Shown: positions 38,861-50,440 of the stretch, piece by piece
How positions within the stretch are numbered: the first letter of the stretch is position 1
Layout: every line of letters starts with the position of its first letter
Source: Actinomycetes bacterium
Lineage (GTDB): Bacteria; Actinomycetota; Thermoleophilia; RBG-16-64-13
DNA length: 64,000 nt
Reading direction: 5' to 3'
Assembly (NCBI GenBank): GCA_024637035.1
Contig: JAGXFW010000004.1
Span: forward strand, 124,001-188,000
Translations under genes and position numbers: made by a program
Notes under the pieces: generated by a model
Seen by the model: only the letters and a program-made list of their open reading frames with translations
Database searches by the model: none
What the model was told of the DNA's origin: nothing

Positions 38861-38965
38861 TCACGATCCTCTTTCGGCCTTCCCCACCAACAACCAGAAC
38901 CCCTCCGCCTCCACCCGCACGGTGTCCCCGTCGCAGATGTCGCTCCGAAGGAGCGTCAAGGCGAT
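38861..38965 (-). pseudogene. clpB 3'-end fragment D
   Basis: Thirty-four codons match the ClpB C-terminus: [22 protein letters not shown] corresponds to the C-terminal end of the intact gene, and a short altered tail (KAERGS) follows. It is in the same orientation as the intact clpB nearly 9 kb away. This is the shortest of the four fragments. The junction sequence AACCCTATTGACTTCCGC lies just beyond it at 38978-38995. Confidence 0.8.
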
Positions 38966-38977
38966 GGTGGTGACGGG

Positions 38978-38995
38978 AACCCTATTGACTTCCGC
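38978..38995. repeat. Junction repeat, copy 1 (short)
   Basis: The 18-base core AACCCTATTGACTTCCGC is shared, with one mismatch, with the longer junction blocks at 43551-43641 and 46265-46355. In each case it lies beside the truncated start of a clpB fragment. Confidence 0.7.
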
Positions 38996-39048
38996 CGGGC
39001 CGAGGTTCATGGTCCGAGGTATCGGGTTCGCCGAGGCGCGCAAGAGGA

Positions 39049-39180
39049 TTGAGCCAGCAGGCGGCCCAAGCAGGCAAGGACCGGGTGATTCCCGTCTACC
39101 TGTCGGATGGATCCACGACCATCGGCGTGTTCATCATCACACACCACAGCGGCACCCTCGTTCTTACACCGTCGGACTAG
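39049..39180 (+). pseudogene. Orphan C-terminal gene fragment
   Basis: This frame from a TTG at 39049 to a TAG at 39180 encodes a coherent stretch (KDRVIPVYLSDGS, then IITHHSGTLVLTPSD) that looks like the end of a real protein. It lacks a start region and no family is recognised. A hairpin with one mismatch (CCGTCGGACT / AGTCCGTCGG) follows at about 39170-39192. Confidence 0.35.
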
Positions 39181-39219
39181 AAGTCCGTCGGGCAATCATC
39201 GCCCGAGGAGGACACAGCC

Positions 39220-46784: not shown

Positions 46785-46800
46785 CGAAGGAGATCACACC

Positions 46801-47442
46801 ATGCGCAAGCTGATCGCTCTAGGGCTGACTCTCGGAATACTACTCGTTGCCGGTACCTTGTGGGTGACCGCTGGACGGGACTCGCAAGCGACGCCGCAGC
46901 AGGCTGATACGAACGTAGCGGCGACAAACGAAGAAGAATTCCCGCGCCTGACCCAGCAGACCGAGTTTCTCTACGACAAGGATGCCGGAAACGTTTCCAC
47001 GCAAACGGCGCATTCGGACATAGTCGTCGTCGGCAAGGTCGTCAAGATCGATCCCGCACGCTGGAACAGCCCCGATGGGAAGTATTGGATTCCCCCCGAT
47101 CCTGTGGTTCCGTGGCTCTTCCGGACCTTCTGGGTGGAACCGACCGAGGTGCTGAAGGGAAGCCCCACCGACAGCGGGCCGATTCCCTTCTTCTTGGTGG
47201 ATGGAGTCGAGGGTGTGGCGGACGGGCCCGTGGACGTGGGCGAGACTGTCCTGGTCTTTGGCTACGAATCGGAACAGAATACAGCCACGGATGGCTACTG
47301 GCCGATAGGTTACAAGCCCAACGTCGGTGAATACAGCATCTATAAGCCGGACGGAGACCGGTTCATCAACGGTGACCGTGATCCGCTTGTCGGGATCACC
47401 ACATTGGATCAGGTGCGCCAGTTGGTGGCCAGCGAGAAGTAG
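46801..47442 (+). CDS. Exported paralogue family P, copy 3
   Basis: The 213-residue protein has the family signal (LIALGLTLGILLVAGTLWV) and the domain with SDIVVVGKVVKIDPARWNSPDG, FWVEPTEVLKGSP and VDVGETVLVFG. It has one unit of the post-signal repeat. AAGGAG precedes the ATG. The 3' end overlaps the antisense hicA fragment. Function unknown. Confidence 0.65.
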   Translation: MRKLIALGLTLGILLVAGTLWVTAGRDSQATPQQADTNVAATNEEEFPRLTQQTEFLYDKDAGNVSTQTAHSDIVVVGKVVKIDPARWNSPDGKYWIPPDPVVPWLFRTFWVEPTEVLKGSPTDSGPIPFFLVDGVEGVADGPVDVGETVLVFGYESEQNTATDGYWPIGYKPNVGEYSIYKPDGDRFINGDRDPLVGITTLDQVRQLVASEK

Positions 47443-47576
47443 TAGCAGGGTGAGGGTGCATTAGCAACCGCCGACCGGAGGCGCATGTGGCTTCCTGTTT
47501 GCCGGCTCGGCTCGTAACCGAGGGCGCGGAGGGCGCCTACGAGTTCCTCCCCAGAGACGTCCCGCGGAAGCCTCAT
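47409..47576 (-). pseudogene. hicA N-terminal fragment
   Basis: The frame starts with RLPRDVSGEELVGALRALGY and RQTGSHMRL, matching residues 1-33 of the intact HicA. After about 47478 the match stops and the frame runs into the antisense 3' end of family P copy 3 until a TGA at 47409. The start overlaps the antitoxin stop, as in the intact pair. Confidence 0.75.
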
Positions 47577-47782
47577 ACGGCTATGACTTCTTCTCTCACG
47601 AAGTGAAGGCGGATGATCCGGGGCCGCACGGTCTCATCGTCGTAGTGGCACAGTACGGCATCGCGCACCTGCGCCTCGAGATCCGCGAGGTCGTCGGCTT
47701 CGGTGAAGATAGAGACCCCGAGGGCCGCCGCCGTGTAGCCACCCTCGGGTGCTTCCTCAACCACGAAGATGATTTCGTTCAC
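47573..47782 (-). CDS. HicB-like antitoxin with a broken toxin partner
   Basis: The 69-residue protein (NEIIFVVEEAPEGGYTAAALG) is about 75% identical by eye to the antitoxin at 38608-38814 and ends with the same LHFVREEVIAV. It starts at a GTG. Its hicA partner is split, so it is probably an orphan antitoxin. Confidence 0.78.
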   Translation of the reverse strand: MNEIIFVVEEAPEGGYTAAALGVSIFTEADDLADLEAQVRDAVLCHYDDETVRPRIIRLHFVREEVIAV

Positions 47783-47863
47783 GGTGGGTCCTCCTGCGGT
47801 GGGTAGGTGACCAGTTCTGAGTATGCCGCCCCGGACACGTCGCCGGCCGCGTCGCAGCGTAGA

Positions 47864-50440
47864 TCACCCCTTCCCCACCACCAACCCCAACCCCTCCGCC
47901 TCCACCCGCACGGTGTCCCCGTCGCAGACGTCGCCCCGCAGGAGCGAGAGCGCGATCTTGTCTTGCAGCTCCTTCTGGATGAGGCGCTTCAGCGGCCGCG
48001 CCCCGTACGCCGGGTCGTAGCCTTGGGCGGCTAGGTAGTCGAGAGCTCCCTCTGAGAGCTCCAGGCCGATGTCTCGCTCGGCGAGGCGGGCGCGCAGTTC
48101 CCCCAGCTGGATCTCTACGATCGTGCGGATGTGTCCCCGCGAGAGCCGGTGGAAGATGACCGTGTCGTCCACCCGGTTCAAGAACTCGGGCTTGAAGGTG
48201 GCCCGCATGGCCTCCATCACCCGGTGGTTCATGTCCACCTCGGTGAGGTCGGGGTCGAGGATCCACTGGCTGCCGATGTTGCTCGTCATGATCACCACGG
48301 CGTTCTTGAAGCTCACGGTGCGTCCGTGACCGTCGGTGAGGCGGCCCTCGTCCAGGATCTGCAGGAGGATGTTGAAGACGTCGGGGTGGGCCTTCTCGAT
48401 CTCGTCGAGCAGGAGCACGGAGTAGGGGCGGCGTCGCACCGCTTCCGTCAGGTACCCGCCCTCCTCGTAGCCCACGTAGCCCGGAGGGGCGCCGATCAGG
48501 CGGGCCACGGAGTGTTTCTCCATGAACTCGCTCATATCGATGCGCACCATGGCCTTCTCGTCGTCGAACATGAACTCGGCCAGGGCACGGGCGAGTTCGG
48601 TCTTGCCCACCCCGGTGGGCCCGAGGAAGATGAAGCTGCCGATGGGGCGCTCGGGGTCTCCGAGGCCGGCGCGGGCGCGACGCAGAGCGTTCGCGACCAC
48701 TTCGAGGGCGTCGTCTTGGCCGACCACGCGGCGGTGGAGGCGTTCCTCCATGTGGATGAGCTTCTCCACCTCGCCTTCGAGGAGGCGGCTCACCGGGATA
48801 CCGGTCCACTTGGCGATGACCTCGGCGATGTCTTCGTCGTCGACTTCTTCTTTCAGCATCTTCTGCTCACGCTGGAGGTCTTCGAGGCGCGTGTTCTGCT
48901 CGGCCAGTTGCTTCTCAAGGCCGGGGATGGTGCCATAGCGGAGTTCGGCGGCTTTGCCGAGGTCGGTGTCGCGCTCGGCGCGCTCGGATTGGGCCTTGGC
49001 CTCTTCGATCTGCTCCTTCAGCGCGCGGATCTCGGCAATGGACTCCTTCTCGGCCTGCCAGTGGGCCTTCATGCCCGCCGAAGTCTCGCGCAGTTCCGCC
49101 AACTCGGACTCGATGGCGTTGCGCCGCTCGATGGAGGCCGGATCGGTCTCCTTCTTCAACGCTTGACGCTCTATCTCGAGCTGTTGGATACGTCGCTCGA
49201 CCACGTCGATCTCCACGGGCATCGAGTCGATCTCGATGCGGAGGCGGCTGCCGGCTTCGTCCACCAGGTCGATCGCCTTGTCGGGCAGGAAGCGGTCGGC
49301 GATGTAGCGGTGGGAGAGCAGGGCCGCGGCTACGAGCGCCGAGTCCTGGATGCGCACCCCGTGGTGCACCTCGTAGCGCTCCTTGAGGCCGCGCAGGATG
49401 GCGATGGTGTCCTCCACCGTGGGCTCGCCCACGTAGACGGGCTGGAAGCGGCGCTCCAGAGCGGCGTCCTTCTCCACGTACTTGCGGTACTCGTCGAGCG
49501 TGGTGGCGCCCACCACGCGCAGTTCACCCCGGGCCAGCATGGGTTTCAGCATGTTGGAGGCGTCCATGGAGCCCTCGGCCGCGCCGGCGCCCACCAGGGT
49601 GTGCATCTCGTCGATGAAGGTGATGATCTGGCCTTCGGAGTCGGCGATCTCTTTGAGCACCGCCTTGAGCCGCTCCTCGAACTCGCCGCGGAACTTGGCG
49701 CCGGCCACCAGGGCGCTGATGTCGAGGGCCACCACCTTCTTGTCCTTGAGTCCCTCGGGCACGTCGCCGGAGACGATGCGCTGAGCGAGCCCTTCCACGA
49801 TAGCGGTCTTGCCCACGCCCGGCTCGCCGATCAGCACCGGGTTGTTCTTGGTGCGCCGGGAGAGCACCTGGATGATGCGGCGGATCTCGTCGTCGCGGCC
49901 GATCACCGGGTCGAGCTTGCCGCGACCGGCCTGCTCGGTGAGGTCGCGGCCGAACCGCTTGAGCGCCTGGTACTTGTCCTCGGCCTGGGGATCTTCGGCG
50001 CGCTGGGAGCCGCGCAACTCCTTGAGCACGGCCAGCACGGTGTCGCGGGTGAGGCCGTGCGTCTTCAGCATTTCCGCGGTAGAGCCGCCCTTGGCCGCCA
50101 GCGCCATGAGCACGTGCTCCGTGGAGGTGTAGGTGTCCTTCATGCGCTCGGCCTCGGCCTGGGCCGCGGCGAGCACGTCGCGGAGCTGGCTGGAGAAGCT
50201 CACGGTGGCGTCGCCGGTGATGGTGCTGAGGCGCGAGAGCTTGGCGTCGAGGTCGGCGCGGAGGGCGTGGGGGTTCACCCCCACCCGTTCCATGATGGGC
50301 ACGGTGAGGCCGCCGTCCTGCGCCAGCAGGGCGGCGAGCAGGTGCTCGGTCTCCACGGCGGCGTGGCCGCGCGAGCGGGCCAGTTCCTGGGCGGCGGCGA
50401 GGGCCTCTTGGGCCTTCAGGGTGAACTTGTCGAACTGCAT
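47864..50440 (-). CDS. clpB: ClpB disaggregase
   Basis: The 858-residue chaperone has an N-terminal domain (1-145), a first AAA+ domain with [16 protein letters not shown], a coiled-coil middle domain (about 405-520), and a second AAA+ domain with [17 protein letters not shown] and [10 protein letters not shown]. It works with DnaK to dissolve protein aggregates. It is complete and intact. Downstream of its 3' end lie four same-orientation partial copies. A consensus-like promoter lies about 85-110 bases upstream. Confidence 0.97.

Follow-up and report, generated by a model that had tools for sequence, protein, structure and literature searches.

A layered array of clpB 3′-end fragments and toxin-antitoxin-like cargo downstream of an intact clpB gene

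In Vibrio cholerae, orphan immunity genes of the type VI secretion system (T6SS) occur in arrays that have been explained by anchored illegitimate recombination and stepwise displacement (PMC5361080). The same explanation is offered for the orphan cdiA-CT/cdiI modules of Acinetobacter (PMC6336857). In Pseudomonas syringae, the integrative and conjugative elements (ICEs) found beside clpB sit at tRNA genes (tRNA-Lys; tRNA-Pro) (PMC3583860, PMC8895235). The locus described here lies in a 64,000-nucleotide stretch of DNA (the window; contig C26:124001-188000 of G000, a 3.57-Mb assembly), in which an intact clpB gene is followed by four partial copies of its 3′ end with other genes between them. 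The locus is genuine, unusual, and layered. It is read, with a probability of roughly 0.6, as an array of successive downstream clpB neighbourhoods built by anchored recombination of DNA from related bacteria.

Like the T6SS arrays of V. cholerae, the clpB locus would have grown by successive anchored insertions that moved old 3′ parts downstream, and a mechanism resembling homology-facilitated illegitimate recombination is proposed there; those arrays, however, are anchored in the upstream region of the effector-immunity module and carry effector and immunity genes (PMC5361080), whereas the clpB locus is anchored in a housekeeping chaperone gene. As with the cdi orphan modules of Acinetobacter and with rhs orphan ends, 3′ remnants accrue stepwise downstream, some of those flanked by tracts of the anchor gene that are open to recombination (PMC6336857; for rhs also PMC5361080). 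In contrast, cdiA and rhs encode polymorphic toxins and carry their payload in the 3′ end (PMC6336857), while the clpB 3′ end is constant and provides homology only. Foreign DNA also adjoins clpB in the P. syringae ICEs (PMC3583860, PMC8895235), but there clpB is merely a neighbour and the XerC/D-type recombinase of the element is named (PMC3583860). The anchor at the present locus encodes ClpB, which is neither a toxin nor a means of toxin delivery; thus, the locus is not a polymorphic-toxin orphan array, though it works alike. Defence and toxin-antitoxin islands cluster MNT/HEPN and HicAB modules at one place, and the clpB locus likewise gathers both. Such islands are not known to alternate with displaced ends of a single core gene. 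Among the titles and abstract openings of the matches listed, a coverage that leaves subscription journals largely outside, nothing describes such a use of clpB ends.

The anchor gene and its partial copies are as follows, in window positions.

47864 to 50440, - strand: intact anchor gene clpB (encodes 858 aa and ends ...GLVVGKG and stop; 97.2% amino acid identity to the clpB product of G001)
45380 to 46282, - strand: clpB fragment A, which keeps the second ATPase and D2-small domains (PF07724, PF10431); 94.6% identity over 868 bp
43036 to 43566, - strand: clpB fragment B, internally deleted; 90.4% identity to intact clpB over 458 bp
41978 to 42161, - strand: clpB fragment C, deletion-joined patches recognised as blastn pieces; matching place present in G005
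about 38861 to 38976, - strand: clpB fragment D, contiguous with the clpB end of G001; the displaced native 3′ end

The original prediction had placed four same-orientation partial copies of clpB here, and blastn bears this out: A to D all share the - strand with the intact gene. Besides its main match, B holds a 63-bp piece at 81%; C consists of pieces of 73 bp (86.3%), 62 bp (88.7%), 32 bp (90.6%), and 23 bp (95.7%), and D matches over 78 bp at 92.3%. The graded decay with distance that had been predicted holds for length, which falls outward, but not strictly for identity, as D is closer to intact clpB than B or the principal pieces of C are. Both in the window and in G005, a genome of the same family but another genus, the anchor clpB is whole and its older 3′ ends follow downstream, oriented like it. 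Their 5′ limits fall at clpB nucleotides of about 1705 (A), 1705 (B), 1742, and 2495 (D), and at about 2395 and 2494 in G005. The start points at these far-side joints vary among fragments, yet A and B have one in common. The reading frame of A is open for 300 codons and covers PF07724 and PF10431 almost end to end, and that of B is open for 176 codons, with a PF07724 match confined to the last part of the profile (111-165 of 166). Within the assembly, the C-terminal domain PF10431 is limited to the clpB locus and two more open frames (862 and 479 aa) that are presumably other Clp genes, so no free form was observed there. Same-strand repeat pairs of at least 60 bp within 12 kb number 14 in the 40-60 kb slice of the window (the locus minus D) and 0 in the other three slices, compared with three pairs, 72-75% identical, across 400 kb of control DNA from this genome (20 hand-chosen, non-random stretches of 20 kb on four contigs).

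In G001, the sole other genome of the same genus compared, the locus is simple: clpB is followed directly by hicBA and then by an ADA gene, and the island is absent. Window positions 38367-38955, which comprise the native hicBA and D, align without a gap to the clpB end and hicBA of G001 at 91.3% identity, and 35836-37902, further out, match G001 at 91.1%. The clpB of G001 ends GLVVGKAEKGSRAV and D ends LLVGKAERGS; the tail ...GKAE.GS and the subsequent TATAATCGATTCGTCC are common to both, while the intact window clpB ends GKG and stop instead. Because the alignment is unbroken and the tails agree, D is the native clpB 3′ end, displaced outward, with about 9 kb of inserted DNA now separating it from the remainder of clpB. 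The window also has, between hicA and the ADA gene, some 460 bp (37903-38366) that are missing at the matching G001 place and hold most of a membrane-protein-like open reading frame (ORF; 37889-38284, - strand).

Over the region of B, pairwise identity is 93.8% between intact clpB and A, 91.0% between intact clpB and G001, 90.7% between A and B, and 90.3% between intact clpB and B. A tree of the last 870 bases joins intact clpB with A (support 90/89), then B (89/76), and then G001 (98/99), which moderately supports the view that A may be younger than B. The private changes are mostly synonymous, with synonymous to nonsynonymous counts of 17:3 in A, 20:3 in intact clpB, and 14:5 in B against a neutral expectation of about 1:3 (neutral P of 4e-8 for A and 1.5e-5 for B). 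The ratio of nonsynonymous to synonymous divergence (dN/dS) is 0.05 between A and intact clpB, the same as between G001 and intact clpB, and 0.11 between B and intact clpB; this test of constraint covers A and B, as C and D are too short. Since the changes are mostly synonymous, A and B diverged inside working clpB genes and not as decaying local copies. The pattern fits a resident 3′ end that would have been functional until displaced, together with an incoming allele of a sister lineage. The earlier idea that each insertion leaves a copy of clpB behind is therefore hard to maintain, D being the native end by the G001 alignment and A and B having diverged under ClpB-like constraint. In a maximum chi-square comparison of B with G001, 0 of 79 sites differ and then 12.3% do (P 0.018), and the longest-run test on the spacing of differences gives P values of 0.034 for A and intact clpB, 0.0025 for B and G001, 0.46 for A and G001, 0.55 for B and intact clpB, and 0.64 for B and A. 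Both tests suggest that mosaicism lies chiefly in B. At the other end of the gene, the first 300-400 bases of clpB (nucleotides 1-400) differ by 29-33% between G000 or G001 and G005, compared with 12.6% elsewhere, a contrast reached in 0 of 5000 permutations; the N-terminal domain may have been replaced or evolved faster in one lineage.

A sequence termed J adjoins A and B, and its 15-base motif recurs beside D.

46283 to 46355, no strand assigned: J sequence adjoining A, with CCTATTGACTTCCGC (46303-46317) and a G8 tract
43567 to 43641, no strand assigned: J sequence adjoining B, with the motif at 43587-43601 and a G10 tract
38981 to 38995, + strand: the 15-base J motif again, beside D (its third exact copy)

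When the junctions are compared by eye, A and B begin at the identical clpB base (nucleotide about 1705). The 73 bases flanking the two starts are 95.9% identical with 2 gap positions; the cassette beyond this stretch is just 74-77% alike, and the clpB parts are 91% alike. The motif occurs exactly three times in the genome, adjoining A, B, and D. It has been observed separately that the G tract, 8 bases in copy 1 (46303-46334) and 10 in copy 2 (43587-43620), lies between a TTGACT box and TAGTCT upstream of the metalloprotease-like ORFs, at spacings of 16 and 18 that by eye resemble a phase-variable promoter.

The genes between the fragments, from the anchor outward, are listed below.

47573 to 47782, - strand: hicB′, a second, diverged hicB allele with intact frame, 74-75% to the native copy and named from its position and likeness to 38608-38814
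47479 to 47576, - strand: hicA′ remnant, about the first 34 codons alone, from translation
46452 to 47442, + strand: copy 1 of a metalloprotease-like ORF (46452-46784; PF00413 E 3e-4, under the Pfam cut-off) and a lipoprotein-like ORF (ATG near 46801, to 47442; no Pfam match)
45257 to 45358, - strand: hicA′′ remnant, about the last 34 codons alone, from translation
43803 to 45188, + strand: copy 2 of the metalloprotease-like and lipoprotein-like ORFs; Pfam weak
42254 to 43001, + strand: MNT nucleotidyltransferase (42254-42604; PF01909 E 7e-15) and HEPN protein (42594-43001; PF05168 E 2e-18), both frames intact
41554 to 41844, - strand: MNT antitoxin-like gene (PF01909 E 3e-12)
41289 to 41570, - strand: HepT-like gene with an apparent frameshift; PF01934 E 1e-17 on the C-terminal piece (about 41289-41519), the N-terminal piece without a match
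40881 to 41189, + strand: MNT gene (PF01909 E 1.5e-11), with no HEPN gene recognised adjacent on the same strand
39934 to 40659, + strand: lipoprotein-like ORF, copy 3, from the repeat comparison
39220 to 39903, + strand: unnamed ORF in the same insert as lipoprotein copy 3; no Pfam match above cut-off
38366 to 38814, - strand: native hicB (38608-38814) and hicA (38366-38611; PF07927 E 2e-10), with D 91% to G001

By family domains and gene pairing, this cargo includes predicted toxin-antitoxin modules of the MNT/HEPN and HicAB types. The MNT genes at 42254 and 40881 also match the PADLOC PDC-S09 models, and neither hicB′ nor the native hicB has a Pfam match above cut-off. Accessory genes do lie between the fragments as first described, but the spacers are themselves repeated: 46452-47442 resembles 43803-45188 and partly 39934-40659, and 47479-47809 resembles 38514-38841. 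The hicBA region is found in three states, namely whole hicB′ with cut hicA′ (47479-47782), the hicA′′ end (45257-45358), and the full pair (38366-38814). An antitoxin lacks an intact toxin in three cases alone (hicB′, the MNT gene at 41554 beside the apparently frameshifted HepT, and the MNT gene at 40881), and no intact toxin lacking its antitoxin was seen among the array genes. The lipoprotein ORF occurs three times within the array and once more on contig C29, and relatives of it turned up in 9 of the 299 genomes of the class that were searched, 8 of the 9 from the bacterial family of the window genome with that genome counted. The array copies of this lipoprotein-like family (46741-47442 and relatives) change fast (w 0.28-0.69 between copies). 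The fourth cassette (G000:C29:54840-56031; L045 9840-11031) is bracketed by direct repeats of 118 bp (81%) and neighbours AbiTii-like and weakly DndB-like genes. G001 has the repeat once at the matching place and again on another contig, so the repeat is possibly dispersed and not an array signature; the site may still resemble that signature and is kept as a lead. The possibility that the lipoprotein cassette came from a virus or plasmid was considered and rejected: a scan against viruses yielded 4 pattern matches but no relative, the protein had no plasmid match, and fragment A with cassette DNA matched 1565 plasmid records, none spanning 80% of the query, and the five listed of the 1565 all align within fragment A.

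Related genomes, where the original prediction had advised looking, differ in the layers they carry: G001 lacks the island, while G005 has the C/MNT-HEPN layer and a counterpart of the MNT gene at 40881, with nothing seen in it that corresponds to the cassettes of A and B. The G005 order is clpB, an MNT remnant, HEPN/MNT, fragment f1, an MNT gene, fragment f2, hicB, an apparently broken hicA, and more patches. The stretch from C through HEPN is common to both loci at 81% identity and in the same order, and the MNT/HEPN pair is retained at 84.5 and 90.4% amino acid identity (w 0.19 and 0.10). Because a native-type hicB leader comes after f2, this fragment looks like a displaced native end as well. 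Between the MNT gene at 40881 and D, G000 carries the 39220-40659 genes and G005 none, which indicates that insertions were not purely proximal to clpB. Repeated insertion at the clpB 3′ end thus holds as stepwise accretion, though not always next to the gene. The proposed age order, with the oldest layer outermost, agrees with D being native, with A nearest to intact clpB in the tree and B outside it, and with the missing A/B cassettes in G005, but the gradient is only rough.

At other loci, as much as 10 kb behind clpB was surveyed for fragments of the clpB end, many loci offering less (mean 7-9 kb). In a first set, 12 of 13 family loci were usable (one was too short; the window genome was excluded), and G005 was the one positive. 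A second set gave 0 positives at 20 loci from 18 genomes, three (G010, G014, G017) belonging to this family and the others to the class at large; these loci may in part be ClpC, since both Clp-type genes were used for two genomes. In a named set, 67 of 80 loci were examined (11 were too short downstream and 2 had no clpB end) and 64 were negative. The three positives were L053, which is the G005 record, L059, which is genuine, and L070, which was discarded as an array case because its 66% match is to a distant AAA region, a distant paralogue; an opposite-strand match in L108 from a first pass was also set aside. In L059, a more distant actinobacterial metagenome-assembled genome, clpB is followed by an AAA_14/DUF4143 gene and a second clpB end of 124 bp at 98.4% with a different tail. 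This ATPase gene between the intact clpB and the second end (12664-14035) makes an independent one-layer case. In G012, a lipoprotein gene lies between clpB and a truncated hicB.

From these observations, we infer an import of DNA, its route, and a two-step scheme. The incoming DNA would be a clpB 3′ end with its own downstream genes from related bacteria, and it would recombine by homology into the resident clpB, which is proposed to be why that gene remained whole. In founding layers, the far joint would be illegitimate and fall within the resident clpB tail or beyond it, and this tail would be left downstream, as D, f2 of G005, and the L059 repeat may have been. Once clpB pieces stood on both sides of the cargo, both ends of a later layer could be joined by ordinary homologous recombination, after which the fragments would shrink through small deletions. 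A unit flanked by clpB pieces that enters the resident gene in this manner would carry its old junction along and turn the resident functional 3′ end into a fragment, which could explain how A and B combine a shared junction with a functional history. As regards the route, a ComEC-like match exists in a 982-aa open frame of the genome, although such matches are frequent (10 of 14 control genomes).

Three other explanations have to be weighed against anchored recombination. Repeated local duplication of the clpB 3′ end and its neighbours by unequal crossing-over in this lineage, followed by decay, would account for the like layout and 5′ junction of the A and B units, for the three lipoprotein ORFs in the array, and for the clustering of A and B with this genome's own clpB. 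It is nonetheless considered unlikely, given that the A and B substitutions are mainly synonymous, unlike those of decaying copies, that the contents of the layers differ (MNT/HEPN, HepT, hicBA alleles about 75% alike) as do the tails, and that D is part of the native downstream flank. A and B might instead be selected genes in their own right, stand-alone proteins with the ClpB second ATPase and C-terminal part around which the cargo was arranged. Their open frames, the nearly complete domains of A, and the purifying-type changes in both would agree with this, but no evident ribosome-binding site is seen by eye upstream of either start, B retains just the end of PF07724, C and D amount to debris, and the tail of A is fused to foreign sequence, leaving the idea improbable.

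Islands in gene 3′ ends leave a displaced native tail beside an intact gene that has gained a new tail. The clpB locus has this look, and D, f1, and the last C join start near each other (clpB nucleotides of about 2495, 2494, and 2505, D perhaps slightly further upstream by eye), as might be expected of an integrative element that used the clpB 3′ end as its attachment site, supplied a replacement tail, and integrated repeatedly. Contig C26, however, has no match to PF00589, of which the genome has 10. In a scan of 17 proteins and protein pieces from the window, no recombinase rose above the Pfam cut-off, other families, including serine recombinases and transposases, not having been searched genome-wide. 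No tRNA or tmRNA was found in the window, and there is no constant attachment core, with fragment starts ranging over clpB nucleotides of about 1705-2495. The missing tyrosine-integrase match on the contig and the variable break points make a site-specific element very improbable, and an element with a fixed site in clpB is not upheld.

Several points weigh against anchored import. The layer common with G005 has a synonymous divergence (dS) of 0.42-0.52, like that of clpB (0.51) and below that of PBP (0.98), and this is compatible with transfer as well as with vertical descent followed by loss in G001. In G001 itself, recombination between clpB and D could have removed an older array, in place of an original empty state; both fit. 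Within the genus, maximum chi-square comparisons other than that of B with G001 are not significant (intact clpB with G001, P 0.21 for the whole gene and 0.71 for the 3′ part; A with intact clpB, 0.076; A with G001, 0.097; B with intact clpB or A, 0.61 each), and thus no imported clpB tract was located. The hicA′ and hicA′′ remnants are near-complementary halves, and a block of metalloprotease/lipoprotein, J, and A could have entered one hicA. The protease/lipoprotein pair is no known addiction system, and the displaced-end pattern is rare across the surveyed loci.

Anchored recombination may be joined to two speculative ideas. Addiction to resident toxin-antitoxin genes might have made additions outlive replacements, and the three orphan antitoxins are in line with this. 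The G-rich clpB tail might be a recombination hot spot. Its G-run score (47864-47933) of 1.49 is the strongest in the window, reached by about 1 of 12,786 sampled 70-base windows (taken every 5 bases), and the tail favours one glycine codon, GGG making up 8 of 59 before the last 25 codons and 5 of 6 within them. Elsewhere, with tails cut at the end of the match to the window ClpB and not always at the stop codon, scores are 1.29 in G005, 1.20 in G012, 0.96 in G001, and at most 0.54 in ten other family members. The G-rich tail follows one clade; G001, the weakest of the four, has no array, and the L059 tail is not G-rich by eye. Taken further, units of a clpB 3′ end, cargo, and a clpB fragment could be recombinase-free mobile cassettes that use clpB parts as landing arms, loop out, and re-enter a related clpB by plain homologous recombination, with a tail scored as quadruplex-prone acting as a breakage hot spot and addiction turning replacement into accretion, a scheme that is doubtful at present.

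Displaced-end arrays have so far been described for polymorphic toxin genes, whereas here a chaperone gene seemingly serves as the anchor only and the cargo includes toxin-antitoxin genes. If this reading is right, a conserved gene whose downstream region is dispensable could be a docking place that needs no recombinase, and toxin-antitoxin genes could explain why such a place fills up instead of being overwritten. The layers would then record the order of acquisition, making the locus something like a fossil record of the former neighbours of clpB.

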